This document shows positions 32,447 through 54,857 of a stretch of DNA of 64,000 nucleotides, piece after piece. Origin of the DNA: Microlunatus soli (GTDB taxonomy: Bacteria > Actinomycetota > Actinomycetes > Propionibacteriales > Propionibacteriaceae); contig NZ_LT629772.1 of the NCBI RefSeq assembly GCF_900105385.1, forward strand, positions 2,976,001-3,040,000, given 5' to 3'. Each line of letters begins with the position of its first letter. The first letter of the stretch is position 1. A model generated the notes under the pieces. It was not told the origin of the DNA and ran no database searches. It saw only the letters and a program-made list of their open reading frames with translations. A program made the translations under genes and the position numbers.

Positions 32447-35400
32447 CTAGAGTCCGTTGGCTACGGCGGCACCGGCGGCCAGCCAGGCCCGCTGGGTCTC
32501 CGCCTTGAGCAGCGCGAACTGCAACTGACCGTCGACCATGCCGGGATCGAACGGAATCGGCACCGTCGCCCGGGTCAGCGCCTGGTAGCCGGACCGGACT
32601 CGGCGTACGTCGTTGGCGGCGGCGTTGGAGTCGGCCTGCGTGATCACCGCGACCGACTGCTGGGCCAATCGGGCCGATCGTTCGTCCCTGGATGCCAGCG
32701 CCTCCAGCAGCAGCGCGCCGGCCTCGGCATGATCATTACGGGTCGTGGTAGCGACCACCAACTGGTCGGCATGATCGATCATCCGCAACCACATCGGATC
32801 AGACTCATCGTTGCCGCTGTCGATGAAGATCAGCCGATAGTACTTGCCGAGCACGGAGTGGATGGCATCCACGTCCCGCGGCTCGATCCGCTGTTCATGG
32901 GCCAACACCATCGGCTGTGATCGCAGCACGTCGAAGCGATCCCGGGTCTGGTGGTGCACGAAGTGCGCCAGATCGGCTGCCTGGGCACCGGTGCTGAGCA
33001 GTCGCGGGACCTCCGGCAGCAGGTCGAGCAGGGTTGCCTCGTGCCCACCCTGTTCGGTCCGCCAACCGAGCGTGCCGCGGGTCTGGTTGTTGTCCCAGGC
33101 CGCCACCCCTGCGCCACCGAACAGCGCGAACACCGCCGACAGCAGGATCGTGGTCGGGGTGTTGTGGGTCGGAACGCAGGATCGGGTGAGGAACAGATGA
33201 TCATCGGCGGCAACGGCGATGCAGACTGCCTCTCCCCGGCCCGCCGGTTCGATGCTGGCGATGCCTCGGTAGGCGGTGCGTTGACCGTTGCGGGTCTGCG
33301 AGCGCTTTCGTTTCAGCCGAAACAGCTCCAGTCCGACCGGTGCCTTGATCCGCACCGTCCAGGACGGTTTGCCCGATCGCCGTTCGCCGCCGTAGGTGTA
33401 CGCGCTCGTCCCGCGCAAGGACATGGTCACCACGCAGCCGAGGGTCTCGGCGATGAACTTGACGTCGTTCGCGAGACGTTCGCTGGTCGAGGTGAACGAC
33501 GCGGCAACTCCGCGCTCACTGCTCCCGTCGGTGTCCAGCAGCCCTTGCAGCACAGCGGTCCGGGTCGGGATGTCGCCGAGTTTGTAGACCCGCGGGATGA
33601 ACTTGTGCTCACTGGTCAGCCCGTACAAACCGAGATCGACCAACGCCTTGCGCAGCGGGTTCGGCCCCGATTGCGCTGAGCGGACCAGGCGGTAGTCACA
33701 GCGATCCTTGTAGCGGATCCGCACGCCGGCCGGCAGCGTCTGCTCCACCGCTTCGACGAGTTCGGGGTCGATGGTCGAGAACGACAGTGCCGGACTGCTG
33801 ATGCTGCCATCGCCGAGCAACAGACCGATCAGGTACGGATCGAGCGGCACCGGGCTGCCGGCGAATTGAACCGGCTCGGCCGTCGGAACGAAGAACTTGT
33901 GGCGTCGACCGCGCGGACCACGATCGGTGTGCAGCCCGGCATCGCGAAGCTGGTCCGTCGTCATGATCCGCGCACCGGACTCCGCGCGGACAACCGTCGT
34001 CGCCGTCCGCGCCGGACCGACCGCCGAAAGAACGGCCGCCGGCTTGCGGCGCTGCTGGCGATAGTGCGGGTGGCACAATCCGCTGGCGATCGCCTCTCGA
34101 TCGCAGACCTCGACCGCACAATCCTGGTGTCGGCCGCGGTCATTGACTCCCTCGACTTCCCACAGATGGTCGCCATCGGCCAGCACCGAGGTGCCGTCGG
34201 TGAACGTGACCGTGAAGAGCTCGCGCTCACCCTGAGGGAAGACGCCGAGGACGGCATGGGGTCGACCGTCCCGTCCGTAGACCTGATCACCGACGGCCAG
34301 AGACCCGATCGGCCGATACCCACTGGGTGTGAGAACCGGCTCGGTGACGGCCAACGCCTTTCCCGCCCCGCCCTTACCGTTGACGATGGCGATCGTCCGC
34401 GGTCCCGGCCAATGCTGGCTGACCGCCATCATGTCGTTGCGCTCGGAGCGTTCCAGCTCGCTCGGAGCGACCTTGAAGCCGGCCCGGGACAGGAAGCCGC
34501 GGAACCCTCGTGACGCCGGTTCCTCACTCGACTCCTGGACCAGGAACGACTGACGCTGCTGCGGACCGTCCGGGATGCCGTTCTCGGTCGGCGGCTGCTG
34601 GCCGGCCGCGAACCCCTCGGCCCCGGCCTGCGCAGGCACGGTGGCTCCGTTCTCGATCGGCGCGGGCCGCCCCGCACCGACCGGTGCTGCCTGTTGCTGG
34701 GTGAGCGTCCGCTCCGACGTCGACGCCGGTGAATCAGTGGCTGCCCCGTCGCGCCGGGCCGCAGCTGCCGGCAACTGTTCGGAGTGCTGTTGGGCGACCT
34801 GCGGCTGATCGGACTGCGGTTGGCCGAACGGTCGTCGGCCGAACTGCGGCTGATTGGGCTGGGCTGCCCCGAACTGGGCCTGATCGTGCTGGGCCTGATC
34901 TTTGTTGTTCTCGGCCGATGCCGGACCGCCGGCTGGCTCGCCGCGATCAGCGCTGGTCTGCCAGACCGGCCGCGGAGCCGCGTTCGACCCGTCGGCTCCG
35001 GCGACCTCGGTTTCGGTCACTGCCGACTCGACTGCACCAGGCTCGGCGGCACCCGGCTTGGTGGCCTCGGACGAGACAGCACCGGACGCAACAGAGCTCG
35101 CTTGTGCCCCCTCGATTCCCCCAGCAGCCGCCGAGGCTTCCTTCGGCTGCGGATCCGACCGGGTCCCGACCTCGGGTGCCGACGGGGCCGACTTCTCGGA
35201 CGGGGCCGACTCGTGGAAGCGCAGCTTCGGCAGGTCTTCTTTTTTCGTCTTGCGCCGGTTCCAACGCTCCGACGGCTCCCAGACCGACTTCCAGTCCAGC
35301 CGACGCGACTCGGTCACCTCGACGGCGGAGTCCGGCTTCGGCTGATCTCCGGCCAACAACTCGCCGACCAAGGAATCGTCCTCGCTGTCCTGATCCCACC

Positions 35401-35857
35401 CGGGCTCGGCCGGTGGCTCGGTCTCGGATTCGTCGGCGACCGGCGCCGGCGGTTCGGTTTCGGATTCCTCGGCAGCCGGCGCCGGCGGGCGCAGCGCCGT
35501 CCGCGGCGACTGCGGGACCGGCGATCCGTTGTACGCCTCGCGGTTCGGCAAGGTCGGCACTCCCGGCTCGACGGTCTCCGCGGCGTCATCGACGACCGGA
35601 CTGTCGTCGGCGGCCACGTGTCCGTTCGGGTGCACGACCAGTGGCCAGTGTCCGTCCGGGCCGTTCGTGCTGACCCGGACGGGTCGACCGAGTCGCTCGG
35701 CGGTCTCGGTCACCTTGCCGATGATCGCGACCCGTGCCCGATCCAGGTCCGGTTCCGCGACCGGAAAGGTTGCGCCGCCGACGATGACTTCGCCGGTACC
35801 GTCCTCCCGAGCCACTGCCTCGATGCGAGGCCAGCTGGGCACCGTTTCATTACTCAT
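32447..35857 (-). CDS. MinD/ParA-like ATPase with long disordered N-terminus, interrupted by an intein
   Basis: 1136 residues as encoded, 737 after predicted splicing. Residues 1-90 form a small domain. Residues ~95-460 are low-complexity Pro/Ala/Glu/Gln-rich and probably disordered. A P-loop domain follows: 'GPRTIAIVNGKGGAGK' up to Lys500, then a 399-residue intein, then 'TPTTILLSAVFALFGG' from Thr900. The spliced motif GKGGAGKT is the deviant Walker A of MinD/ParA/SIMIBI ATPases. Later 'VAAWDNNQTRGTLGW' and 'YRLIFIDSGND' supply the switch regions. Such ATPases position or energise membrane machines; this one is encoded with a secretion-type locus. Start ATG 35857 has GGGGAG upstream. The three-gene operon order is cell-wall enzyme, lipoprotein, this gene. 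Confidence 0.9.
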   Translation of the reverse strand: MSNETVPSWPRIEAVAREDGTGEVIVGGATFPVAEPDLDRARVAIIGKVTETAERLGRPVRVSTNGPDGHWPLVVHPNGHVAADDSPVVDDAAETVEPGVPTLPNREAYNGSPVPQSPRTALRPPAPAAEESETEPPAPVADESETEPPAEPGWDQDSEDDSLVGELLAGDQPKPDSAVEVTESRRLDWKSVWEPSERWNRRKTKKEDLPKLRFHESAPSEKSAPSAPEVGTRSDPQPKEASAAAGGIEGAQASSVASGAVSSEATKPGAAEPGAVESAVTETEVAGADGSNAAPRPVWQTSADRGEPAGGPASAENNKDQAQHDQAQFGAAQPNQPQFGRRPFGQPQSDQPQVAQQHSEQLPAAAARRDGAATDSPASTSERTLTQQQAAPVGAGRPAPIENGATVPAQAGAEGFAAGQQPPTENGIPDGPQQRQSFLVQESSEEPASRGFRGFLSRAGFKVAPSELERSERNDMMAVSQHWPGPRTIAIVNGKGGAGKALAVTEPVLTPSGYRPIGSLAVGDQVYGRDGRPHAVLGVFPQGERELFTVTFTDGTSVLADGDHLWEVEGVNDRGRHQDCAVEVCDREAIASGLCHPHYRQQRRKPAAVLSAVGPARTATTVVRAESGARIMTTDQLRDAGLHTDRGPRGRRHKFFVPTAEPVQFAGSPVPLDPYLIGLLLGDGSISSPALSFSTIDPELVEAVEQTLPAGVRIRYKDRCDYRLVRSAQSGPNPLRKALVDLGLYGLTSEHKFIPRVYKLGDIPTRTAVLQGLLDTDGSSERGVAASFTSTSERLANDVKFIAETLGCVVTMSLRGTSAYTYGGERRSGKPSWTVRIKAPVGLELFRLKRKRSQTRNGQRTAYRGIASIEPAGRGEAVCIAVAADDHLFLTRSCVPTHNTPTTILLSAVFALFGGAGVAAWDNNQTRGTLGWRTEQGGHEATLLDLLPEVPRLLSTGAQAADLAHFVHHQTRDRFDVLRSQPMVLAHEQRIEPRDVDAIHSVLGKYYRLIFIDSGNDESDPMWLRMIDHADQLVVATTTRNDHAEAGALLLEALASRDERSARLAQQSVAVITQADSNAAANDVRRVRSGYQALTRATVPIPFDPGMVDGQLQFALLKAETQRAWLAAGAAVANGL
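33161..34357 (-). other. Class 3-like intein with LAGLIDADG endonuclease (399 residues)
   Basis: It is inserted between Lys and Thr of the Walker A motif. It begins with Ala1 ('ALAVTEPVLTPSGYRPIGSL', block A) instead of Cys or Ser. Block B ends 'DGTSVLADGDHLWEV' with Trp66. Block F reads 'AVCIAVAADDHLFL' with Cys379, and block G 'CVPTHN' is followed by Thr+1. Ala1 with Trp/Cys/Thr is the class 3 signature. In that class the block F Cys starts splicing by forming a branched intermediate. Endonuclease motifs are 'YLIGLLLGDGS' (~175-185) and 'LQGLLDTDGS' (270-279). A Cys/His cluster, C80-x4-C85-x9-C95-x2-H98, resembles a small zinc finger. Confidence 0.9.
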
Positions 35858-35989
35858 TGCCTGTTTCTCCCCTTGTTCCCGCCCAGCGCCGACGTAGCAC
35901 CCCCGCCTCAGGAATGATCCGACGCTGGACATCAGACGCAGGAACAAGGACCCCAGGTTCCAACGTGCCGGGGCGCGTGCTGGAACGAG

Positions 35990-36673
35990 TCATTGGATCG
36001 TATAGCCGACAACGGTCCATCCGGCATCCTGCGACTGACGCCGGAGGGTGACGATGTAGGTCGAACCGGTGTCGGGGAACGCGATCCAGTCGCCGGCGCC
36101 GTGGTCGACCGGGGTGACGGACACGGCCCGGACGGCGGACCGATCCGTGGTCGGCGGGGGACCGAGACCGCCCAGCCGGGTGCGTACCGAGGTCCAGCCG
36201 CGGTGCTCGGCCAACTGGTTCCAGCGCGCCCCGGGGCCGGACCGCGGCTCGGCCGCCAGCAACCGGGACCGCAGCACCGGATCCGCGAACGCGACGGCAC
36301 GGCGGACGGCATCATTGGGGCGACGGTCGAGTGCGGTGTCCCACGCCTCGAGGCGGACGACGAACGCTGTCGCCACCTGATCGGCATCGCGTCGGTCAAC
36401 CCGACGCTGGCTCGCGGTCAACCCGCGGGCCGCGTCCGGCTCGGTCGACCGGGGATCGGCAACAGCAGGCCCCGATCCCGAGCTGCCGCGCGAGGGGTGA
36501 CCGCCGGGGAACGGCCGCGCCCCCTCGGCCGACGCGGCCGACGCGGCCGGCGACGGCGCTGCGATCGGCGACGGACGCTCCCCCGATCGGTCGTCGGCCG
36601 ACTGCCCTCGCGCACAGCCGGCGGCCAACGTCAGCAGGACGAGGATCACCAGCAGACGGCTCGCCGTCATCAT
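35990..36673 (-). CDS. Lipoprotein of the secretion-like locus
   Basis: 227 residues. A lipoprotein signal 'MTASRLLVILVLLTLAAGC' with lipobox L-A-A-G-C is followed by a ~60-residue Ala/Ser/Pro linker and a folded C-terminal domain of ~140 residues (from 'ASQRRVDRRDADQVATAFVVRLEAWDTAL'). The latter has the size and layout of the NTF2-like VirB8/TcpC-type domains found in Gram-positive conjugation systems; this is a structural guess, not a recognised motif. The start overlaps the upstream cell-wall enzyme gene by 4 nt. Confidence 0.75.
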   Translation of the reverse strand: MMTASRLLVILVLLTLAAGCARGQSADDRSGERPSPIAAPSPAASAASAEGARPFPGGHPSRGSSGSGPAVADPRSTEPDAARGLTASQRRVDRRDADQVATAFVVRLEAWDTALDRRPNDAVRRAVAFADPVLRSRLLAAEPRSGPGARWNQLAEHRGWTSVRTRLGGLGPPPTTDRSAVRAVSVTPVDHGAGDWIAFPDTGSTYIVTLRRQSQDAGWTVVGYTIQ

Positions 36674-37719
36674 CCGGCCACCACACGCATGATCATCGGG
36701 CTGCGGGACCGGTAGTAGTCGTCGTTGTAGACCTGGTACCGCACGTTCAGACCGGTGCGGGGCGCCTCGATCATCTTCTGGGCGTCGAAGACCATGCCGA
36801 CATGGTCGAACGGCCCGCCGGCTCCGTTCATCTTGAAGTAGATCAGATCGCCCGCTCGTCGTTGTCGGTAAGGGATCTGTCGCAGCCGCGCCGACTCGAC
36901 CTGGGTGAAGGTGGTCCGGGTGATCTGCACCCCGACCGACTGCCAGGCGTGTTGCATCAGCGATGAGCAGTCCCAGGTGTCGGGGCCGGCCGATCCGAAG
37001 ATGTACGGCTTGCCGAGCTCGGCCTGAGCGGCGGCAATCGCCTTGCCTGCCAGCGAATCCGGTACCGCATCAGCTGCTGCGCCCGCGTCCGCGGCGGCTC
37101 CCGGATCCAGCGGGTCACCGGTGGCGGGCGTGGACAGGGTCGCCATCGTGGCAGTCACCGACCGGACGTAGTCGGTGGTCTCGGGGATCGCCGGCACCCC
37201 TGCGGCGGCCAGCACCGCGCCCGGACCTGCGTTGTAGCCGGCCAGGATCAGGTCGGTGAGCTCACCATGCACCGATCCGTCCGCCAGCCACTGTTTCATC
37301 TGTCCGCCGATCGCACACAGGTAGTCGGCTTCGCTGCCGATCGCATCGAGCGGATTGCCGGCATCGGCCCTGCCGTCGGCGTCGTAGTCCTTGCCCCAGG
37401 CCGACCAGGTCGCGGGCATGAACTGCGCGATCCCACGGGCTCCGGTGCTGGCGTTGACAGCGTCGGAGCGGAACTCCGATTCGTGTTTCAGCTGCGCCGC
37501 GATCAGGGGCGCCGAGACCTCCGGACAACGTGTCCCGGCCAAGCTGATGGCCGATCGGAACTGATCGGGAACGCTTCCAGGTAAGAGATCTGCCTCGTCG
37601 TCGCCGCCATACATCACCGCCGGGACACCGGCCGCGAGCACCAGCACGAACATCAGCAGCATGATCAACAACGGCAGCACCGCGGTGCCGATCCAGATCA
37701 TGATGCGCAGACGCAGCAC
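36670..37719 (-). CDS. Bifunctional cell-wall enzyme: SLT transglycosylase plus NlpC/P60 (VirB1-like)
   Basis: 349 residues. One membrane helix (~6-36) is followed by a lytic transglycosylase domain (~52-195) with catalytic E80 in 'QLKHESEFRSDAVN' and 'GIAQFMPATW'. A linker leads to an NlpC/P60 domain (~222-345) with Cys251 in 'WDCSSLMQHAW' and His306 in 'DHVGMVF'. Such two-domain enzymes open peptidoglycan for conjugation machines in Gram-positive bacteria. The GTG start has GGGAGGA 7 nt upstream. It heads the leftward operon and is divergent from the DUF6668 gene; the 234-bp gap between them should hold both promoters. Confidence 0.93.
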   Translation of the reverse strand: MLRLRIMIWIGTAVLPLLIMLLMFVLVLAAGVPAVMYGGDDEADLLPGSVPDQFRSAISLAGTRCPEVSAPLIAAQLKHESEFRSDAVNASTGARGIAQFMPATWSAWGKDYDADGRADAGNPLDAIGSEADYLCAIGGQMKQWLADGSVHGELTDLILAGYNAGPGAVLAAAGVPAIPETTDYVRSVTATMATLSTPATGDPLDPGAAADAGAAADAVPDSLAGKAIAAAQAELGKPYIFGSAGPDTWDCSSLMQHAWQSVGVQITRTTFTQVESARLRQIPYRQRRAGDLIYFKMNGAGGPFDHVGMVFDAQKMIEAPRTGLNVRYQVYNDDYYRSRSPMIMRVVAG

Positions 37720-37953: not shown

Positions 37954-38730
37954 GTGTCGGACAAGATCAACCCGTGGTTGTTGCGGCGAGCGCCGTCGTC
38001 GCCGTCGCCGGACCGACAGGATTCTGATCGTGAGCCGCTGCGGACCGGTCCTGACCGACCGCAACGCGGTGGCCGGGTCCCCGATCCGGCGTTCCGGATC
38101 GGCGTCCATGAACAGCACGGACCGCCGGCTTCGCTGTGGGTGCTGGGCGTTCACGGCGGTGCAGGCGAATCCACGATCGCCGCCTTGCGGCCCGGCTGGT
38201 CCGCCGCCGGGCACGGCTTCCCGGCGACGATACCGTCGATCAACAGGAGCGGCGGACCGGACCGGCTGGTGCTGACCTGTCGCTCCCACGTGCCGGGTCT
38301 GTCGGCGGCGCAGGCTGCGCTGATCCAGTGGGCGGGCGGCGCGATCGGCTGGTTGGAGCTGCTCGGACTGGTGATCATCGCCGACGCCCCCGGAACGTTG
38401 CCCAAACCCGCCCGCGACCTGGCGACGGTCGTCGCAGGGGGCGCGCCGAGGTGTTGGCGATTGCCGTGGTCGGAGGCCTGGCGGATGGGTGAGAACCCTC
38501 CGCCCGCAGAGCTGCCGCGCCCGGTTCGTCGGCTGCTCAGCGACCTCGACGCGCTGGTCGGCTCGTCCGACGCGCCCGCTCCACCCAGCATTGCCGGCAT
38601 CCCACCCGCGCCCGAACCCGAATTTCCCGATTCTGTAAGCCTGGAAGGAATCCACCATGCACGTTCTCGAAACGATCATCCCGCTGACCCAACACATCGC
38701 GGCGTTCGTCCCGTTGCAGATCCCCGGTGA
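37954..38730 (+). CDS. DUF6668-like protein with a degenerate P-loop
   Basis: 258 residues. The start GTG at 37954 ('VSDKINPWLLRRAPSS') has GGGAGG 7 nt upstream. The core reads 'LWVLGVHGGAGESTIAAL' (~68-85), which looks like a MinD-type P-loop with Glu replacing the catalytic Lys. 'LLGLVIIADAPGTLPKPARDLATVV' and 'WRLPWSEAWRMGE' follow. This pattern fits the actinobacterial DUF6668 family found with conjugation genes. It may be a non-hydrolysing partner of the MinD-like ATPase. Its 3' end overlaps the next gene by 74 nt. Confidence 0.75.
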   Translation: MSDKINPWLLRRAPSSPSPDRQDSDREPLRTGPDRPQRGGRVPDPAFRIGVHEQHGPPASLWVLGVHGGAGESTIAALRPGWSAAGHGFPATIPSINRSGGPDRLVLTCRSHVPGLSAAQAALIQWAGGAIGWLELLGLVIIADAPGTLPKPARDLATVVAGGAPRCWRLPWSEAWRMGENPPPAELPRPVRRLLSDLDALVGSSDAPAPPSIAGIPPAPEPEFPDSVSLEGIHHARSRNDHPADPTHRGVRPVADPR

Positions 38731-38965
38731 TCCGGCGGTCAAGCAGCCGCCCGGAACCGAAGGCATCACCGCTGTGATGGGTTGGGCCAAATGGATCGCG
38801 CTGGCGGTCTGCATCCTCGGCCTGGTGATCGCCGGCGCCCTGATGGCCATCCAGTCCCGACGCGGTGAGGGCGGCGAGCACGTCGGGAAGATCGGAATGG
38901 CCCTAGGAGGAGTTGTGGTGATCTCCGCGGCCGGATCACTGGTCGGCTTCCTGGTCAGCGCCTGA
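38657..38965 (+). CDS. Small two-helix membrane protein, VirB2/TrbC pilin-like
   Basis: 102 residues. An N-terminal hydrophobic stretch and processing-like region is followed by two membrane helices, 'WAKWIALAVCILGLVIAGALMAI' (~44-66) and 'IGMALGGVVVISAAGSLVGFLV' (~79-100), with a basic loop between them ('QSRRGEGGEHVGK'). This hairpin topology is that of VirB2/TrbC pilins, and the gene occupies the matching place ahead of SCO6880 and VirB4. GGAAGGAA 7 nt before the ATG gives a strong ribosome site, as expected of an abundant subunit. Confidence 0.7.
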   Translation: MHVLETIIPLTQHIAAFVPLQIPGDPAVKQPPGTEGITAVMGWAKWIALAVCILGLVIAGALMAIQSRRGEGGEHVGKIGMALGGVVVISAAGSLVGFLVSA

Positions 38966-39029: not shown

Positions 39030-40535
39030 ATGAGTGATCTCACCGCCAAGGCATCGCGATCGTACGGCAATTGGCGCCGGCCGAGCTCCGCCGGCCTGCT
39101 CGGCCTCGGCTCGATCGGCACAGCGGTGCTGCTCGGCGGTCTGATCATGGTCGTGGTGACCGTGATGACGGCCGGCATCGTCGCCGCCGGCATCGTCGCG
39201 GCCGCCCTGGTCGGGACGCTGGGACTGGTGGTGTTCAAGGACGCGCACGGCCTGAGTCTGTTGGCCCGCGCCGGTGCCCGGGTCGGCTGGTGGTCGACGC
39301 GCACCCGTGGTCAGCACCTCTACCGATCCGGTCCGCTCGGTGCCGCGCCGTGGGGCAGCCACCAGCTCCCCGGTCTGGCCGCACCGACCCGACTCAGTGA
39401 ACATCAGGACTCCTACGGCCGCCCGTTCGCGTTGCTGTACACGCCGGCCACCGGGAGCTTCTCGGTGGTGATCGGCACCGAGCCGGACGGTGCCGCGCTG
39501 GTCGACCAGGAACAGGTCGACGACTGGGTGGCCGACTGGGGTCATTGGCTGGCCAACCTGGGCGACGAACTCGGCATCCAGGGGGCCGCCGTGACCATCG
39601 AGACCGCGCCGGATTCGGGCACCCGGCTGCAACGAGAGGTCGCGGCCAACACCGACCCGGACGCTCCCGAATTCGCCCGGGCGATGCTCGCCGAGACCGT
39701 GCTCCGCTATCCGGTCGGCTCCTCCACGGTCAAGGCGTTCGTCAGCATCACCTACTCCGCCGTGCCGCGAGCGGGCGCGAAGAGGCGGTCGACCGACGAG
39801 ATGGCGCGCGAGCTCGCTTCCCGGCTCCCGGGGCTGACCGCAGGGCTCCAGGCCACCGGTGCGGGTGCGGCCCATCCGTTGTCGGCCCGCGAGCTCTGCG
39901 AGACGGTGCGGGTCGCCTACGACCCGTCCGCGGCGCTGCTGATCGACCAGGCTCACGCCAACGGTGACGATCCGGAGCTGTCCTGGACCGACATCGGCCC
40001 GTCCGCGGCGGAGGCCGGCTGGGACGGCTACCGTCACGACGGCGCCTACTCCTGCACCTGGGCGATGACCCAGGCGCCGCGGGGCAACGTCCAATCCTCG
40101 GTGTTGGGCCGACTACTGGCACCGCACCGCGACATCGCCCGCAAGCGCGTCACCTTGTTGTACCGACCGATCGATGCCGCCCGAGCAGCGGCGATGGTGG
40201 AGGCCGATCTGCGAGCAGCAGAGTTCCGGCAGACATCGACCAACAAGCCGGCGGCCCGCGACGTGCTCGCGGTGCGCGCCGCGGCAGCGACGGCCGGTGA
40301 GGAGGCCGGCGGTGCGGGCTTGATCAACTTCGGCATGTTGATCACGGCGACGGTCACCGGTGCCGACCAGCGGGCCGACGCGCTGGCAGCCATCGACAAT
40401 CTGTCGGCCACCGCCCGGCTCCGGGTGCGTCCGGTCTACGGGAGCCAGGACAGCGCCTTCGCTGCCGCATTGCCACTCGGTCTGGTGTTGGCCAAACACC
40501 TGCGGCTGCCCGCCGAACTGAGGGAGAAGCTGTGA
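39030..40535 (+). CDS. SCO6880 family conjugation/secretion protein
   Basis: 501 residues. Two close membrane helices (~25-75) follow an N-terminal 'SRSYGNWRRPSSAGLLGLGSIG'. The rest is a large soluble domain with segments 'FALLYTPATGSFSVVIGTEPDGAALVDQEQVDDWVADWG' and 'AYSCTWAMTQAPRG' typical of the SCO6880 family. In Gram-positive systems these proteins sit between PrgI/VirB3-like and VirB4 functions. The stop overlaps the VirB4-like GTG by 4 nt, which indicates tight coupling. Confidence 0.87.
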   Translation: MSDLTAKASRSYGNWRRPSSAGLLGLGSIGTAVLLGGLIMVVVTVMTAGIVAAGIVAAALVGTLGLVVFKDAHGLSLLARAGARVGWWSTRTRGQHLYRSGPLGAAPWGSHQLPGLAAPTRLSEHQDSYGRPFALLYTPATGSFSVVIGTEPDGAALVDQEQVDDWVADWGHWLANLGDELGIQGAAVTIETAPDSGTRLQREVAANTDPDAPEFARAMLAETVLRYPVGSSTVKAFVSITYSAVPRAGAKRRSTDEMARELASRLPGLTAGLQATGAGAAHPLSARELCETVRVAYDPSAALLIDQAHANGDDPELSWTDIGPSAAEAGWDGYRHDGAYSCTWAMTQAPRGNVQSSVLGRLLAPHRDIARKRVTLLYRPIDAARAAAMVEADLRAAEFRQTSTNKPAARDVLAVRAAAATAGEEAGGAGLINFGMLITATVTGADQRADALAAIDNLSATARLRVRPVYGSQDSAFAAALPLGLVLAKHLRLPAELREKL

Positions 40536-42163
40536 TCATCAGCAGCCGCCGTCGCAACGCCAAGGACGGTCGGGGCGACGGCCCGGAACGGGACATCGAG
40601 AGCGGTGATCAACGGTCCGGATCCACACCGCGCAAGGGCGTTCGTCCGCTTCGACCGACGACCCGCGGCTGGCTCGGCCGAGGCCGAGGCGGGTCGAGCT
40701 ACCTGCAGGCACCCGCCGAATGGCGGGGCACGACGGTCCAGGTCTGCGGGATGTGGCCGTACGCGGTCGGCACCGGCACCCCGATGGTCGGCGTACCGCT
40801 CGGCCGGCACGTGCACACCGGTGCCACCCTGTGCTGCGATCCGATCTCCTGGTTCCAGCGGGCGAAGTTGATCAGCAACCCGAGCGTCTTCGTACTCGGC
40901 AAGCCGGGTCTGGGCAAGTCGACGATCGTCCGTCGGATGGCGACCGGTCTGGCCGGGTACGGCGTCATGCCGCTGGTCCTCGGCGACCTCAAACCCGACT
41001 ACGTGGATCTGATCCGGGCGCTGGGCGGTCAGGTGATCTCGCTCGGTCGTGGCCGCGGACACCTCAACGTCCTCGACCCCGGCGAGGCCGGGCAGGCCGC
41101 CGACCGGTTGCACGCGGCCGGCCACGGGCGGGAAGCCGCGCAGGTGCTGGCCGATGCCCACGGCCGGCGGCAGACGATGGTTTCGGCGTTGTTGACGATC
41201 ATGCGGTCGGCGCCGCCGAGCGATCGTGAGGAGACGATCATCGACCGGGCGCTGAAAGTGCTGGACTCCAGACATGACGGCGTACCGGTGCTGGGTGACC
41301 TGTTGCGGGTCATCCGGGAAGGTCCCGACGAGGTCCGCGCGGTGGCGTTGGACCGTGGGGACGACAACCGATATCAGCAGATCACCGAGGAGTTGGAGGC
41401 GTCGCTGATCGGCCTGGTCGGTGGCGGCCGACTGGGTGAGACCTTTGCGGCGCCGACCACCAATCCGATGCGCCGGGACGCCCCGGTGGTCTACGACGTG
41501 TCGGCGATCGACGACTCGGAGATGGATCTGCAGGCGGCCACGCTGTTGGCCTGCTGGTCGGCGGGCTTCGGCACGGTCAACGTGGCCAACGCGCTCGCCG
41601 ATGCCGGCCTGGAGCCACGTCGGCACTACTTCGTGATCACCGACGAGTTGTGGCGGGCACTCCGCGCCGGACGCGGGATGGTCGACCGGGTCGACGGCCT
41701 GACCCGGCTGAATCGGCAACGCGGCGTCGGGATGGCGATGATCAGCCACACCATGAGCGACCTGCTGGCGTTGTCCTCGGAGGAGGATCGGATGAAGGCG
41801 CGAGGCTTCGTTGAACGTTCCGGGATGGTCATCTGCGGCGGCCTGCCGTCGGCCGAGATGCCGCAGCTGACCGCAGCCGTCCCGTTCTCCTCCGCCGAGC
41901 AGGACCTTCTGATCGGCTGGCAGGATCCGCCCGCCTGGGATCCGGCCAGTGGTCGCGAGGTCGACCCGCCGGGGCGCGGCAAGTTCCTGGTCAAGGTCGG
42001 CGGGCGGCCCGGCATCCCGGTCTCGGTCGAGCTGACCGACATCGAACGCTCGATCAACGACACCAACCGGCTCTGGCACGAACAGAGCAGGGTCGGTGCC
42101 CGCCGGGCCGTGGGGGAGCCCGACGGCACCGACACCGGGGCCGCAGCAGGAGGTGCGTCATGA
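40532..42163 (+). CDS. VirB4/TraC-like secretion ATPase
   Basis: 543 residues. The N-terminal 60 residues are basic and flexible. A P-loop 'VFVLGKPGLGKSTIVRRM' (Walker A ~123-131) is followed by 'MPLVLGDLKPDYVDLI' and Walker B 'HYFVITDELWRALRAG'. Then comes 'RQRGVGMAMISHTMSDLLAL', the conserved region after Walker B in VirB4. It should energise pilus assembly or substrate transport at the cytoplasmic face. It lacks the long N-terminal VirB4 domain, which the SCO6880 protein encoded just upstream probably supplies. Confidence 0.88.
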   Translation: MIISSRRRNAKDGRGDGPERDIESGDQRSGSTPRKGVRPLRPTTRGWLGRGRGGSSYLQAPAEWRGTTVQVCGMWPYAVGTGTPMVGVPLGRHVHTGATLCCDPISWFQRAKLISNPSVFVLGKPGLGKSTIVRRMATGLAGYGVMPLVLGDLKPDYVDLIRALGGQVISLGRGRGHLNVLDPGEAGQAADRLHAAGHGREAAQVLADAHGRRQTMVSALLTIMRSAPPSDREETIIDRALKVLDSRHDGVPVLGDLLRVIREGPDEVRAVALDRGDDNRYQQITEELEASLIGLVGGGRLGETFAAPTTNPMRRDAPVVYDVSAIDDSEMDLQAATLLACWSAGFGTVNVANALADAGLEPRRHYFVITDELWRALRAGRGMVDRVDGLTRLNRQRGVGMAMISHTMSDLLALSSEEDRMKARGFVERSGMVICGGLPSAEMPQLTAAVPFSSAEQDLLIGWQDPPAWDPASGREVDPPGRGKFLVKVGGRPGIPVSVELTDIERSINDTNRLWHEQSRVGARRAVGEPDGTDTGAAAGGAS

Positions 42164-43965
42164 GTCGGCCGAGCAACCGGCGGCGCGACCCCGGTGGCCT
42201 GTCCGGTGAGATGATCTTGGCGTTCGTCGGTCTCGGGCTACTCACCGCGATCGTCGGGATCTGCTACCTGGGCGTACGGGTCGGCAATCGGATCGACGGC
42301 GTCGACCCGGCCATCCCGGATGATCCGTTCGGTGTGTTCTTCGGGTTGATCCGCGGCGACGTCGGCTGGCCGGCGTCGGGCGACCTGGTGTTGATCGCGG
42401 CCGGGTTGTTGTTGATCATAATCGCGGCCGCCGGGTTCCTGCTCCGGCGGAGGCTGCACAAGCCACGGTCCCGGGTCGACCGGTCGGCCGGCTATCTCGG
42501 CCGTGGCGCCGACATCGCCGGCCTGAGCCGGCGCAGCGCCGAACGGAAGTCCGATCGGCTCGGGGTCGACGGGTCCCCGGGAGTGCCGATCGGGCGGACC
42601 GTCACCGGTGATCATGAGCTGGTCGGGTCCTGGGAGGACATGCACATCGACGTGTGGGGACCCCGGACCGGTAAAACGACCAGCCGGGCCATCCCGGCGA
42701 TTCTGGATGCGCCGGGCGCGGTCCTGGTCACCTCGAACAAGCGTGACGTGGTGGACGCGACTCGCGACGTCCGTGCCGCCGACGGTCCGGTGTGGGTGTT
42801 CGATCCGCAGCAGATCGCCGAGCAGGAACCGGACTGGTGGTGGGATCCGCTGAGCTACGTCACCGACGAGGTGCAGGCGGCTCGACTGGCCGGCCATTTC
42901 GCTGCTGGGTCACGAGAACCCGGCGCCAAGACCGACGCCTTCTTCGATCCCGCCGGGCAGGATCTGCTGGCCGGACTGCTGTTGGCAGCGGCCTGTGAAC
43001 GCAAGCCGATCACGCAGGTGTACAGCTGGGTCACCCGGCCGACCGACGAGACCCCGGTCGACATCCTTCGTGATCATGATTTCCCGCTGACCGCCGATCA
43101 GGTGTCCGGTGTGGTGACCGCTCCGGAACGCCAGCGCGGCGGGATCTACGGCACCGCCCAGCAGATGGCCGCTTGCCTGACCAACCGCAAGGTCGCCCGC
43201 TGGATCACCGCCGGCCCTGGCGATCAGCGGCGGGCGTTCGATCCCGGCGTCTTCGTCCGCTCCGGCGGAACGCTGTATTCGCTGTCCAAGGAGGGCAAGG
43301 GCACGGCCGGGCCGTTGGTGACCGCGCTGACCGTCGCGGTGGTCGAGGCCGCCGAGCAGTTGGCTACCCGATCACCGAACGGACGGCTACCGGTGCCACT
43401 GCTCGGCGTGCTGGACGAGGCGGCCAACGTGTGCCGCTGGAGCGATCTGCCCGACCTCTACAGCCACTACGGTTCCCGGGGCATCGTGCTGATGACGATC
43501 CTGCAGTCCTGGTCCCAGGGTGTCGACGTCTGGGGCGAGTCCGGGATGAAGAAGCTCTGGAGCGCGGCCAACATCAAGGTGTACGGCGGCGGCGTCGCCG
43601 AGGCGCAGTTCCTGGAGGACCTGTCCAAGATCGTCGGCGACTACGACCGGCTGTCCTCCTCGGCATCGGTGACCAAGGGGCAACGGACCGTCTCCCAGCA
43701 GCTGCAGCGGGAACGGATTCTGGACATCGCCGATCTTGCCTCGATGCCGCAGGGCCGGGCCCTGGTGATCGCCTCGGGATCGCGGCCGACACTGGTCCGG
43801 ACCGTGCCGTGGATGTCCGGCCCGTACGCGAGCAGGATCCGAGACTCGATCGCCGCTCACGGCCCACGCCGTACGACGCCGTCCGATCCTGAACCTGCCG
43901 AGGTCGAGCGCACCGACCTGCCGTCAGGAACACCGCAGCAAGATCAACAACCGCAAGGAGCTTGA
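42160..43965 (+). CDS. VirD4/TraG-type coupling protein
   Basis: 601 residues. Two N-terminal membrane helices (~18-38 and 76-97) precede a cytoplasmic motor domain with Walker A 'WGPRTGKTTS' (G167-T174). 'VLVTSNKRDVV' and 'VWVFDPQQIAEQEPDWWWDP' follow, then Walker B 'LLGVLDEAANVCRW', then the TraD/TraG C-terminal region ('LMTILQSWSQGVDVWG'). Coupling proteins deliver relaxase-bound DNA or proteins to the secretion channel. It overlaps the VirB4-like gene by 4 nt. Confidence 0.93.
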   Translation: MSRPSNRRRDPGGLSGEMILAFVGLGLLTAIVGICYLGVRVGNRIDGVDPAIPDDPFGVFFGLIRGDVGWPASGDLVLIAAGLLLIIIAAAGFLLRRRLHKPRSRVDRSAGYLGRGADIAGLSRRSAERKSDRLGVDGSPGVPIGRTVTGDHELVGSWEDMHIDVWGPRTGKTTSRAIPAILDAPGAVLVTSNKRDVVDATRDVRAADGPVWVFDPQQIAEQEPDWWWDPLSYVTDEVQAARLAGHFAAGSREPGAKTDAFFDPAGQDLLAGLLLAAACERKPITQVYSWVTRPTDETPVDILRDHDFPLTADQVSGVVTAPERQRGGIYGTAQQMAACLTNRKVARWITAGPGDQRRAFDPGVFVRSGGTLYSLSKEGKGTAGPLVTALTVAVVEAAEQLATRSPNGRLPVPLLGVLDEAANVCRWSDLPDLYSHYGSRGIVLMTILQSWSQGVDVWGESGMKKLWSAANIKVYGGGVAEAQFLEDLSKIVGDYDRLSSSASVTKGQRTVSQQLQRERILDIADLASMPQGRALVIASGSRPTLVRTVPWMSGPYASRIRDSIAAHGPRRTTPSDPEPAEVERTDLPSGTPQQDQQPQGA

Positions 43966-43970
43966 TCATC

Positions 43971-44423
43971 ATGACCGAATCGCTGTCCCAGCTGCTGCCC
44001 GAACCGGGACCGGAGCTGATCATCGACGACAACCTCGCTGTCGACGAAGAGCCCGAGGAGGAGATCGAGCTCCAGTTCGGCAGCGTGGACGAGTTCGTCC
44101 GGGACTACCTGCGACACATGTACAAACGCCGGATCGACGGCCGCAACCGGGTCTGGTCCGCCCGCTGGTGGGAGGTCGGCGAGGCGATCGTCCGGCTGGA
44201 GGCGTTGTGGCGCTCCTGGGAGTACCTGCGTCAGGACCCGTCCACCGGGATGAGTGTCTGGTGGCGCGACCATGCCGACTACCACCTGGCGATCCTGCTC
44301 TCCCCCGACGGCCCGTTCGCCGAGACCGCCGACGAACCGGAGAACACCAACCGCCGCGGAGATCCGCTGCCCTACCTGCCGCCCCCGGAGGGTCTGTTCG
44401 CCGACGTTCGGGACGCGGAGTGA
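43971..44423 (+). CDS. DUF4913 family protein
   Basis: 150 residues. An acidic N-terminus is followed by a conserved core 'FGSVDEFVRDYLRHMYKRRIDGRNRVWSARWWEVGEAIVRLEALWRSWEYLR' and 'SVWWRDHADYHLAILLSPDGPF', which fits DUF4913. These soluble proteins accompany VirD4-like genes in actinobacterial mobile elements and may be accessory to the coupling protein; their role is unknown. ATG 43971 is preferred to TTG 43962, which lies too close to the AAGGAG site at ~43955. It is the last gene of the rightward operon. Confidence 0.87.
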   Translation: MTESLSQLLPEPGPELIIDDNLAVDEEPEEEIELQFGSVDEFVRDYLRHMYKRRIDGRNRVWSARWWEVGEAIVRLEALWRSWEYLRQDPSTGMSVWWRDHADYHLAILLSPDGPFAETADEPENTNRRGDPLPYLPPPEGLFADVRDAE

Positions 44424-48250: not shown

Positions 48251-48327
48251 TGGTGGGCCTAACTGGACTTGAACCAGTGACCTTTGCCTTATCAGGGCAA
48301 CGCTCTAACCGACTGAGCTATAGGCCC
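48251..48327 (-). tRNA. tRNA-Ile (anticodon GAU)
   Basis: 77 nt including a genome-encoded CCA. The acceptor stem GGGCCTA/TAGGCCC is perfect. The D-arm (GCTC/GAGC), anticodon stem TTGCC/GGCAA with loop CTGATAA, and T-arm ACTGG/CCAGT with TTCAAGT all fold. The discriminator base is A. It lies downstream of gyrA and DUF3566, the order usual in actinobacteria. Confidence 0.97.
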
Positions 48328-48472: not shown

Positions 48473-49558
48473 TCAGTCCTCGGCGAGGGTGACCTCAAGG
48501 CCGCCGAGCATGGTGGCGGCCAGGTTGTACAGGAACGAGGCCAGGGTGGCCAGCGCGGTGAAGATCACCACGTCGATGCAGGCCAGGAAGGCCGTCACGC
48601 CCATCACCTTCTGGGTGTTGACGTAGTCCTCGATCCGGAACGGCGTGGTGTCGCCCGGGCTCTGCAGAACGCTGCCGACGATCGAGTCGACCGAGTCGAA
48701 CAACCCCGACGATCCGATCACCAGCCAGACCGCGTAGACCGCGACGACCATCACGATGCCGGCCGCGATGGAGAACAGGAAGGCCGTCTTCATCACCGAC
48801 CACGGATCCAGTCGGGACAGCCGCAGCCGCGCCTTACGGGTGCCGCGGGCCGTTCCGACCTTCGGCTTGTCGGCCTTGGCCGGGTCGGCGCTGTCGGCGC
48901 CCGCGGTTGCCGAGGCCGGCGGGCCGACGGGCTCACGGTTCATCGCGGTGGTCGGCTCGTTCGCCGGGTCGGCGGACGATCTCTGCGTCGTCGCGGTGTT
49001 CTTCGCGGCCGTCGCACCGGCGGCGGCAGTGGCGGTTGCCCCGGCGCCCGCAGCCGTCTTGCCGGTGGCAGGCTGCTGGCCGGCGGACTTCGCCGCATCG
49101 GACTTCGATTCGTCGGACTTCGCGGGGTCGGGCTTCGCGGGGTCGGACTTGCCTCCCGACCGCACCCGGCCCAGCACGCTGCTGGCCACGGCACTCAGCT
49201 TGCTGGTCGGCTCGCCGCCCGATTCGGTGCCGGCGGTCGCACCGGCGGCGTTCCCGTTGGCAGCGGGCTGCGTCGCGGTGTCCGGAGCGCCGCCGTTCCG
49301 GCTGCCGTTGGCCTGCGCGCTGCGAGCGTCGTCATCGACCGGTTGAGCCCGGGCTGCCGTCGACGTGCCGTCGGTCTGTGCCTCCGGCGCCGAGCCCGCA
49401 CTGCGTGCCGGTCGAGCGGATGCGCTGCGCTTGGCGTTCCGTCCGGCGGCACTGGCCGCTGCGGCGGCGTAGATGTCGTCGCCGCCGGAGGGGCCGCTCT
49501 GAGTGCTCGCCGGGCTGGAGGCCCCTTCGGGTCCCCTGCTGCGTTCGCTCACCGTCAT
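48473..49558 (-). CDS. DUF3566 membrane protein
   Basis: 361 residues. Residues 1-235 are low complexity (Ala/Ser/Lys/Asp/Thr) and include a run of '[10 protein letters not shown]' repeats. The C-terminal DUF3566 domain follows: '[36 protein letters not shown]', a loop, then '[41 protein letters not shown]', with two membrane helices. The family almost always follows gyrA in actinobacteria; its role is unknown. It overlaps gyrA by ATGA. Confidence 0.93.
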
Positions 49559-52275
49559 TCCTCCGGTTCATCCTCGTCGGCGTCTGTGCTCGAGTCAGTC
49601 TGGCTACTCGATTCTGCCTGGTCAGACCCCGCGGTCGTGGCGGACTCGCCCTCCACGATTCCAGATTCGTCCGCAGGATCCGAATCGACGCTCGTATCGG
49701 ACGCGTCCGGGGCGGAGCCGTCCTGCTCCGACCCGGCCTCGACCGGCGCGCTGCCAGGAGTAGTCTCCTCGCCCGATTCAAGCTCCTCCAATTCCGGCGT
49801 CGTCTCCGGGTTCAACGCGATCACAGCCACCGAGTCGCCGCCACGGACACCGACGAACTTGATGCCCATCGTGTCCCGGCCCTTGACCGGCACTTCGGCG
49901 ACAGCGCTGCGGGTGATCTGGCCGCTGGCCTTGATCGCGATCACCTCGTCGTTCTCCCGCAGCACCAGCCCGCCGACCAATTCGCCGCGCGCGTCGTTCA
50001 GCTTCATCGCCTTGATACCCAGGCCGCCACGGCCCTGCTGACGATACTGCGACACCGCGGTCCGCTTGCCGAAGCCCTCGTCGGTGACGGTGAAGACGTA
50101 CCACTCGTCCTCGGCCAGATCACTGGAGATCCGGGTCAGGCTGAGCAACTCGTCGCCGTCGCGGAACTTCATACCGGTGACGCCGGAGGTCGCCCGGCCC
50201 ATCGGCCGCAGCTGGGCATCGGTGGCCGGGAACCGGATCGCCTGGCCCTTCTTGCTGATCAGCAGCACGTCGTCCTCGGGGCTGCACAGCTCGGCGCCGA
50301 TCAGCTCGTCGTCCTCGTCGCGGAAGTTGACCGCGATGATGCCGGCCTGCCGCGGCGAGTCGTACAACGACAGCTGGGACTTCTTCACCAGGCCCTTACG
50401 GGTGGCCAGCAGCAGGTACGGCGCATCCTCGTAGCTGCGCAGCGTGAGGACCTGGGCGATCTCCTCGTCGGGCAGGAAGGACAGCAGCCCGGCGACGTGA
50501 CCGCCGCGGGCGTCCCGGTTGGCCTCCGGCAACTGCCAGACCTTGGCCCGGTACACCCGGCCCTTGTTGGTGAAGAACAGGATCCACTGGTGGTTGCTGG
50601 TGGCGAACAGATGCACCACTTCGTCGTCGGCCTTCAACGACGCGCCACGTACGCCCTTGCCACCGCGCTTCTGCACCCGGTAGGCGTCGGTGTTGGTGCG
50701 CTTGGCGTAGCCGCCGCGGGTGATGGTGACCACCACGTCGTTGTCGGGGATGAAATCCTCGGCGCTCATGTCGCCGTCATCGGCGATGATCTCGGTCCGC
50801 CGGTCGTCGCCGTACTTCTCCACGATCTCGGCCAGCTCGGTGCTGACGATCTGCCGCTGCCGCTCGGGCCGGGCCAGGATGTCCTGGTAGTCGGCGATCT
50901 CGGCCTCGATCTTGGCCAACTCGTCGATGATCTTCTGCCGTTCCAGAGCAGCCAGCCGGCGCAGCTGCATGTCCAGGATGGCGTTGGCCTGCAGCTCGTC
51001 GATCTCCAGCAGCTCGATCAGGCCGGTCCGCGCCTCGTCGGTGGTCGGGCTGCGGCGGATCAGCGCGATCACCTCGTCCAGCGCGTCCAGCGCCTTGACC
51101 AGGCCGCGGTAGATGTGCGCCCGGGCCTCGGCCTGGGCCAGCCGATACTCGGTCCGGCGCCGGATCACGTTCAGCTGGTGAGTGATCCAGTACGAGATGA
51201 ACTGGTCCAGCCGCAACGTCCGCGGCACTTCGTCGACCAGCGCCAGCATGTTGCAGCCGAACGTGTCCTGCAGCTGGGTGTGCTTGTACAGGTTGTTCAG
51301 CACCACCCGCGGCTGGGCGTCCCGCTTCAGCACGATCACCAGCCGCTGGCCGGTCCGGGCCGAGGAGTCGTCCCGGATGTCGGCGATGCCGGCCAGTCGA
51401 CCGGCGTTGACCAACTCGGCGACCTTCAGACTGAGGTTGTCCGGGTTGACCATGTACGGCAACTGGGTGACCACCAGCTGGGTACGGCCGGCCTTGTCCT
51501 CCTCGATGTCGACCACCGCGCGCATCGTCACCGAGCCGCGACCGGTGCGGTAGGCGTCGTCGATGCCCTTGCGGCCGACGATCAACGCACCGTTGGGGAA
51601 ATCCGGACCGTGCACCCGCTGGATCGCCGCCTCCAGCAGATCCTCCTCGGTCGCCTCCGGATTCTCCAGCGCCCACTGCACGGCGTCGGCGACCTCACGC
51701 AGGTTGTGGGTCGGGATGTTGGTGGCCATCCCGACCGCGATGCCGGTCGATCCGTTCACCAGCAGGTTGGGGAACCGGGCCGGCAGCACGACCGGCTCCT
51801 GGGTCTTGCCGTCGTAGTTGGCCCGGAAGTCGACGGTGTCCTCGCCGATGTCGCGGACCATCTCCATCGCCAGCGGCGCCATCTTGCACTCGGTGTAGCG
51901 CATCGCCGCGGCCGGGTCGTTGCCCGGCGAACCGAAGTTGCCCTGACCGTCCACCAGCGGGTAGCGCTTCACCCAGCTCTGGGCCAGCCCGACCAGGCTG
52001 TCGTAGATCGCGGAGTCGCCGTGCGGGTGGTACTGGCCCATCACCTCGCCGACGACCCGGGCGCACTTGTTCCAGCCACGGTCCGGCCGGTAGCCGCCGT
52101 CGTACATCCCGTACAGGATCCGGCGGTGGACGGGCTTCAACCCGTCGGTGACGTCGGGCAGTGCACGGCCGACGATCACGCTCATCGCGTAGTCCAGGTA
52201 GGACTTCTGGATCTCGTCCTGCAGATCGACCGGTTCCAGCCGATCATGCCCCGGTGGCGGCGTAACTTCCGTCAT
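49555..52275 (-). CDS. gyrA: DNA gyrase subunit A
   Basis: 906 residues. Near the N-terminus '[30 protein letters not shown]' leads to the quinolone region '[19 protein letters not shown]', with Ser and Asp at the classical resistance positions (wild-type pattern). The catalytic Tyr is in 'AMRYTECKM'. The GyrA box is '[10 protein letters not shown]' in the C-terminal beta-pinwheel. The last ~75 residues are a Glu/Asp/Ser-rich tail. It cuts and reseals DNA to introduce negative supercoils, with GyrB supplying ATP. AAGGAAAG precedes the ATG. gyrB lies 125 nt upstream. Confidence 0.98.
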
Positions 52276-52400
52276 ATCTCAACTTTCCTTACCTACAAGC
52301 GATGTACGTGTCCGAACCGACCCAAGATGATCAGCCCAACTCGACCCTCAAGGCGACCACGCCCGGGGGTCCGGGGGTCGCCCCCCGCGAGCGGAGCGAG
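52276..52400 (-). other. gyrB-gyrA intergenic region with a GC hairpin
   Basis: This 125-nt spacer contains GGGGG-TCG-CCCCC (52373-52385) beside a GCTCGC-TCC-GCTCGC element on the minus strand, and the gyrA ribosome site. The hairpin directly after the gyrB stop could attenuate or stabilise the message. No separate gyrA promoter is obvious. Confidence 0.45.
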
Positions 52401-54473: not shown

Positions 54474-54857
54474 CGGTTCCTGGCTCCTGTCACACGTGGG
54501 CCGCCGGATCCGCAGACTTCCGCGGAGATGCGGCGGCGCCAAGTTGCTCACCGCGATCCGAGTGCTCGGACCGCTCTTCACATGCTCGGTCCATACTACC
54601 CCGTAACACCCGGATTTCCGGTTCTGCAGGGCCGACTATCCACAGCCGAATGCCTCTGGGAGGCGCGCTAGCCGGGTTTGGCGCGGCTGCCAGGGGCGTT
54701 GACAAGGCCCGGTACGCACCCCGGCCCTCCTGATGCGTTCCCGGGCCGCTGACAGATGTTGTCCCGGGTCTCCAGGACGGCCCGGCGGGACGTTCGACCC
54801 GACCGTTCGACCCGTCCGTGGGCCTGATCGTTCGCCGGGATGGTCCGAGCCGGGCGA
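54474..54857 (-). promoter_or_regulatory. gyrB upstream region (384 bp)
   Basis: No gene is visible. On the minus strand a TAGTAT -10-like hexamer (54593-54598) is the best promoter element and would give a leader of about 110 nt before gyrB. A single DnaA-box-like CTATCCACA occurs near 54637. GGTCGAACG occurs twice in tandem (about 54790-54812), and the distal end contains a hairpin after the GntR gene. Confidence 0.4.

Follow-up and report, generated by a model that had tools for sequence, protein, structure and literature searches.

A very probably mobile class 3 intein with an internal zinc-finger motif in the Walker A motif of a MinD-like ATPase from Microlunatus soli

Our analysis of a 64,000-nucleotide stretch of the Microlunatus soli genome (contig NZ_LT629772.1, positions 2,976,001 to 3,040,000; hereafter the window) revealed an in-frame insert in the gene of a MinD-like ATPase, beside conjugation genes, that is very probably a mobile class 3 intein carrying its own homing endonuclease. 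Judged by all sequence and fold tests, it is a genuine class 3 intein. Specifically, the insert covers exactly 33161-34357 on the minus strand (399 residues) and lies between the Lys and the Thr of VNGKGGAGK/TPTT, so that the Walker A motif GKGGAGKT is split precisely after Lys500, as an earlier note made from the bare sequence had proposed. A plus-strand reading of 33161-34357 was rejected, as the intein frame sits on the minus strand. The host open reading frame (35947..32447, minus strand) is open end to end, with 1166 codons from a TTG at 35947; the start codon is likely the ATG at 35857, behind GGGGAGAAACAGGC, which gives a precursor of 1136 residues in which the Lys preceding the insert is residue 500. 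The insert begins ALAVTEPVLTPSG, has GDHLW at residues 62-66, reads CIAVAADDHLFL from Cys379, and ends in CVPTHN, followed by Thr. The computed masses are 121.1 kDa for the precursor, 43.2 kDa for the intein, and 77.9 kDa for the spliced product (737 residues), the last within the range of about 75-80 kDa given earlier. The precursor gene and its parts are as follows.

32447..35857, minus strand: intein-bearing precursor gene, 1136 residues (open reading frame and translation)
34358..35857, minus strand: N-extein, 500 residues, ending ...IVNGKGGAGK, with long Pro/Ala/Gln-rich stretches seen by eye
34358..34378, minus strand: Walker A, GKGGAGK ahead of the insertion point (translation, orthologue comparison)
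33161..34357, minus strand: class 3 intein, 399 residues, ALAVTEP...CVPTHN (sequence and fold matches)
34148..34357, minus strand: splicing (Hint) domain, N-terminal part, residues 1-70, with D61-x-x-H64-x-W66 (PDB sequence matches 6bs8, 6rix, and 6riy; model; fold match)
34160..34162, minus strand: Trp66 codon, the W of the Trp-Cys-Thr (WCT) triplet
34064..34120, minus strand: zinc-finger motif C80-x4-C85-x9-C95-x2-H98, invariant in 15/15 (matches to phage HNH-endonuclease PHROGs; zinc binding predicted)
33293..33850, minus strand: LAGLIDADG homing endonuclease, about residues 170-355, with LLGDG (D183) and LLDTDG (D277) (PF14528; PI-SceI matches)
33161..33274, minus strand: splicing domain, C-terminal part with blocks F and G, about residues 362-399
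33221..33223, minus strand: Cys379 codon, block F initiating nucleophile
33176-33178, minus strand: Cys394 codon of the intein
33167..33169, minus strand: Thr397 codon, the T of the WCT triplet
32447..33160, minus strand: C-extein, from the +1 Thr (33158-33160) to the stop, the remainder of the MinD-like ATPase

The insert does not stand alone. A protein search (7990 candidates scored, 1590 similar, the best 120 listed) returned 14 listed proteins besides the window's own that form a group with it at 44-68% identity, all split at the same Lys-Thr position. Twelve of these, P0002-P0013, have hosts that align with the window's MinD-like ATPase, which is the basis of their label (a Pfam search covering P0002 and P0008 of these twelve named only the intein), while P0014 and P0017 have ParA domains above the Pfam cut-off. 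The next-best relatives among the matches listed are about 31-40% identical and reside in FtsH, PhoH, SNF2, DnaB, terminase-like, and other hosts. A tree of similarity-selected relatives (58 of 147 inteins extracted; no class 1 outgroup) unites the 15 inteins in one clade (100/100). The inteins of P0014 and P0017 are longer by about 60 residues (457 and 461 residues), the extra stretch lying within the endonuclease.

The residues that define the class are all in place: Ala1, Trp66, Cys379, and a +1 Thr, as the earlier note had read them, and Thr397-His398-Asn399. Ala1 occurs here and in 14/15 inteins of the clade (P0007 has Ser), no Cys, Ser, or Thr being required at position 1; the block B Trp (W66), the Cys at position 4 of block F (C379), and the block G THN (T397-H398-N399) are each present in 15/15; D61-x-x-H64 of the window has its DxxH counterpart in 14/15; and the C-extein +1 residue supplies a hydroxyl nucleophile as Thr. 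Among the other class-3-type inteins, all 132 carry THN and the Cys of block F, and 125/132 show the block B Trp by the pattern used, with the limit that extraction demanded HN before Thr, Ser, or Cys, leaving only the Thr of THN as an independent observation; 7/154 rows with no recognisable start or end were dropped, and several viral rows are near-copies. Published inteins of class 3, a rarer type, bear a diagnostic triplet, with Trp in block B, Cys in block F, and Thr in block G; in DnaBi1 these are Trp67, Cys118, and Thr137 of T-H-N (PMC6195587), and the triplet Thr of MchDnaB1 is likewise in block G (Thr143; PMC7664689). Hence, the Trp/Cys/Thr set named earlier has its Trp and Cys at the places given, but its Thr is T397 of block G and not the +1 Thr; the class assignment stands because T397 is present here. 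Beside these residues, Cys394, near the splice junction in sequence and five residues ahead of the final Asn, is found in 12/15 MinD/ParA inteins against 5/132 of the others, in which Phe is commonest at that position (91/132).

Comparisons with known structures point the same way. The first 70 residues match mycobacterial class 3 DnaB mini-inteins in a PDB sequence search (E 1.7e-9 and similar), and the splicing half of the predicted structure superimposes on solved class 3 inteins with a root-mean-square deviation of 1.4 A over 123 residues, a Hint fold. The middle of the intein matches PI-SceI, the yeast VMA1 intein, in the same kind of search, and the predicted structure matches that protein end to end; PI-SceI is a class 1 intein. 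LAGLIDADG_3 (PF14528) is recognised at E 5.8e-10 (39.7 bits against a cut-off of 22.5), and both LAGLIDADG acidic residues, D183 and D277, are invariant in 15/15.

Uninterrupted host genes complete this evidence. We searched the joined host sequence in 77 genomes, the window's own included, and found a host match in 47; the best, in genomes G012 and G007, run straight through the insertion point, so the check for intein-free orthologues that had been called for did find them. Walker A is unbroken in 12 of the 13 loci inspected from 29 fetched non-own host loci, the remaining one (L041) giving no line that contained the motif searched for. In 119 listed non-own host proteins, the Walker A Lys is followed by Thr in 115 cases and by Ser in 2; in the other 2 the motif was not found. 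Because 14 relatives share the insertion position and host orthologues continue through it uninterrupted, the pattern, as read from sequence, is not chance. It also bears on the reading that the insert is an ordinary ATPase domain and no intein at all, for which we found nothing: orthologues lacking exactly this insert, the same module in PhoH, SNF2, DnaB, FtsH, and terminase-like hosts, conserved splice-junction residues, and the fold of solved inteins leave that reading with a probability close to nil, and we regard it as refuted, both by the sites that lack the insert and by homologues in hosts of other kinds. In the genus, the two intein-free alleles nearest to the window's gene (L036/L037, in G012 and G007) have Ser at the +1 position, where the window has Thr; this Thr was perhaps carried in with the intein. 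Elsewhere in the same genome there are six AAA_31 (ParA-type) matches, two of them nearly full length and unbroken. In genome G042, contigs C17 and C19 (L083, L084) end in the Walker A codons flanking the site, which could be a missing intein or an assembly break, and they were not counted.

The simplest reading of the sequence comparisons is that the intein has moved laterally among distant MinD-like genes. Of 13 relatives whose exteins could be aligned well enough for use, 10 resemble the window's protein more closely in the intein than in the extein, strikingly in P0003 (61.5 vs 32.2% identity), P0006 (58.1 vs 28.7), P0007 (57.3 vs 28.2), and P0009 (56.9 vs 30.7); P0014, with 27 aligned residues, was not counted, and P0017 had only 116. 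In the tree built from exteins, P0003 and P0006 are set off by a branch of 1.95 changes per column (100/100), yet the intein data join them to P0001, P0002, and P0004 (98/96), and forcing a six-member host group onto the intein data costs 27.2 log units (approximately unbiased test, p-AU 0.0067). The element is also sparsely distributed. With four candidates scored per genome, a match of the MinD type occurred in this genome only among 391 genomes of the order and 396 of the phylum (own counted; hosts of other matches not inspected), any match at E 1e-20 occurring in 13/391 and 17/396, respectively; the non-own matches have main segments of 32-45% identity and short N-terminal pieces of 54-58%. 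Scanning with the clade alignment gave two distant loci in genome contigs (38% and 29%) and 30 in viral contigs (all <=39%), with no MinD-type intein in either set. Matches in 39 plasmid records and 538 phage records were all <60% identical (best among the matches listed, 34.8% and 35.6%, respectively), and an intein-only protein search yielded no further MinD-type member among the best 120 listed. Enterobacterial plasmids hold a distant relative (H10-H14, 30.8%), in one record under an annotated traD, and plasmid match H4 lies in an ATPase of the type II secretion system/type IV pilus/type IV secretion system (T4SS) family; transfer ATPases may recurrently host inteins.

Beyond the features read earlier, we found related inteins at the same site, another class 3 intein elsewhere in this genome, and an internal zinc-finger motif. 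This motif, C-x3/4-C-x9-C-x2-H (CCCH), lies between block B and the endonuclease in 15/15 inteins of the clade, and with the same script it was absent from all 132 other class-3-type inteins; none of 90 further database matches had it. The finger segments match the phage HNH-endonuclease families phrog_19978, 1271, and 5351 (13/15 each, best E 8.3e-9), the window's own segment doing so at E 1.2e-5 to 2.5e-5, and eight control proteins with finger-free inteins gave no HNH-family match at E 0.01. The PHROG families are named for HNH, whereas the intein has a LAGLIDADG enzyme, and its matches to them end at the finger region. A weak similarity to Pfam Zf_WRKY19 was seen in 7/15 (best E 9.4e-4).

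Several points weigh against this picture of a mobile class 3 intein with a zinc finger. First, Pfam Intein_splicing (PF14890) had no match in the window's genome; the family is present in only 2 of the 120 relatives listed, and because it gave no match we relied on sequence and fold evidence. Splicing, endonuclease cleavage, and zinc binding are all predicted functions. Second, the window's own finger segment is not among the 7/15 matching Zf_WRKY19, a comparison of the finger with the PDB gave chance-level matches only (best E 0.09), and the predicted local distance difference test (pLDDT) has block means of 64-86 over residues 71-110, a moderate confidence. We infer that the finger binds zinc and DNA, and the DNA-binding part of that inference counts on this side of the balance. 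Third, for P0002, P0008, and P0012 (3/13) similarity is higher in the extein than in the intein, the pattern expected of vertical descent. Finally, the tree conflict is moderate: because the host group has a support of 61/70 in the extein tree and was picked after the identities had been seen, we take the conflict as supporting and not decisive.

From class 3 literature, in which the block F Cys initiates splicing and two branched intermediates form (PMC4031507), Cys379 would attack the peptide bond ahead of Ala1. The N-extein would then be transferred to the +1 Thr, and cyclisation of Asn399 would join the ATPase halves and restore GKGGAGKT. With its Walker A split, the precursor would be expected not to bind ATP before splicing. 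The LAGLIDADG endonuclease would cut intein-free MinD/ParA P-loop codons, into which the intein would be copied, and the zinc finger most likely supplies extra DNA contacts for the target. PI-SceI has a DNA recognition region at the place corresponding to the finger.

The earlier suggestion that splicing switches the whole machine drew no support from the comparisons made here, and a selfish element that splices constitutively is the simplest explanation. One might instead suppose that the intein is a conditional switch, in which splicing, and hence ATPase activity and conjugation, awaits a redox, zinc, or DNA signal. Zinc and oxidants act on the block F Cys of DnaBi1, a class 3 intein inserted at this same P-loop point, and inhibit it (PMC6195587, PMC7360933); the window intein has that Cys, a zinc finger, and the clade-typical Cys394. 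However, the DnaBi1 redox partner of the block F Cys, Cys48, aligns with Leu47, invariant in the 15; the closest orthologues have no intein, and the host gene therefore manages without one there; and the MinD-type intein is rare and patchy, with this genome as its sole match in the order and phylum scans (four candidates scored per genome). Nor is position alone a sign of regulation, because insertion between the P-loop Lys and Thr is classic and about 70% of bacterial and archaeal inteins lie in ATP-binding proteins (PMC5050341). We consider the switch unlikely. Equally doubtful is a bolder scheme, in which a class 3 lineage captured the finger of a phage HNH endonuclease; the finger would retarget the LAGLIDADG enzyme to MinD/ParA P-loop codons, enable jumps of the intein between distant conjugation ATPases, and couple zinc or DNA occupancy to the nearby splicing centre, such that maturation of the ATPase would be confined to particular zinc, redox, or DNA states.

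The second class 3 intein of this genome splits the Walker A motif of DnaB about 107 kb off (GMGK/ALALDTP...IPTHN/S; G000:C1:3117977-3119287, plus strand, L002/L003). Its second endonuclease motif reads LLDTAG, an apparent loss of the Asp, and we therefore read its endonuclease as possibly dead. Together with an intein pseudogene reported for Arthrobacter FB24 (Arth_1007; PMC3196547), this lends something to the view that the window intein is itself decaying, either with splicing intact and a dead endonuclease or with the whole gene a pseudogene. That view is highly improbable, as the frame is open throughout, both LAGLIDADG Asp residues, the WCT triplet, and the zinc ligands are intact, and the C-extein remains 79-81% conserved with orthologues.

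Among known systems, M. smegmatis DnaBi1 (6bs8/6own) and M. chimaera MchDnaB1 (6rix/6riy) share the class 3 residues, the P-loop insertion, and the splicing-domain fold with the window intein. DnaBi1 differs in having no endonuclease and a redox Cys48 (PMC6195587), whereas the window intein has LAGLIDADG, a zinc finger, and Leu47 in a MinD-like host. The class-3-type inteins of PhoH, SNF2, DnaB, and terminases in actinobacteria and phages have the same triplet at about 31-40% identity and no finger (0/132), and those of PhoH are inserted in a different motif, after MRGR. The PI-SceI endonuclease (VDE) is described as having no zinc finger (PMC7282813), unlike the window intein. Yeast HO/WHO likewise join an intein-like LAGLIDADG protein to a zinc finger. 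According to PMC7282813, however, their finger, of Cys-x-x-Cys repeats, follows the intein-like region, they have no exteins, and HO is non-splicing; the window intein falls outside the HO/WHO type, with exteins on both sides, a single internal CCCH finger, and intact splice residues.

The spliced product is, by sequence, a MinD-like ATPase, in keeping with the MinD/ParA-like host of the earlier proposal. The source records of several close host relatives label them MinD-like or members of the MinD/ParA family, and the ParA/MinD-type Walker A KGGxGKT is present in host and orthologues. AAA_31 and CbiA are above the Pfam cut-off in the intein-free homologue P0129, and P0126 (Microlunatus sp. 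Gsoil 973), which is 79% identical over 302 conserved residues, falls just under it for AAA_31 (25.0 vs 27 bits). The C-extein alone has no Pfam match; it is 79-81% identical to its orthologues. What had been called a secretion-type locus can be refined to a conjugation-type T4SS cluster of the SCO6880 family, as its gene content indicates: a coupling protein, a VirB4-like ATPase, and an SCO6880-type protein are in synteny with an NlpC/transglycosylase gene, and in G012 the same genes have the same arrangement around an intein-free ATPase gene. The neighbours are as follows.

36670..37719, minus strand: NlpC/P60 and lytic transglycosylase protein, conjugation wall hydrolase type (syntenic in G012)
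38657..38965, plus strand: T4SS-pilin-like small membrane protein (20.2 bits, under the Pfam cut-off of 26.6; syntenic in G012)
39030..40535, plus strand: SCO6880 family protein (NF042935, E 3.8e-171)
40532..42163, plus strand: VirB4-like ATPase (partial matches under curated cut-offs only)
42160..43965, plus strand: VirD4/TraG coupling protein (PF12696 and PF02534 above cut-off)
43962..44423, plus strand: DUF4913 protein, the last gene of the cluster (syntenic in G012)

Beyond the cluster lie a tRNA-Ile gene (48251-48327) and gyrA and gyrB, read by eye at 49555-54581; this stretch is a possible integration region.

The kind of element is already known. Two aspects look new. First, MinD/ParA-like ATPases appear to be a new class of intein host: papers linking inteins to MinD, ParA, integrative conjugative elements, or conjugative plasmids named no such host among the matches listed. 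Two ParA leads were rejected, one being a cyanophage TerL intein and the other an intein purification tag. Second, a zinc finger inside a splicing-type intein looks new: a 2020 paper gives yeast HO/WHO as the only known intein-zinc-finger fusions, and literature on inteins with zinc fingers held no bacterial case among the matches listed. MinD/ParA-like ATPases, here beside conjugation genes, thus extend the range of intein hosts. Further, the 15 natural variants allow a direct test of the part that the finger plays in target choice; if it does aid that choice, this intein would illustrate the way in which a new family of P-loops becomes the target of a homing intein.
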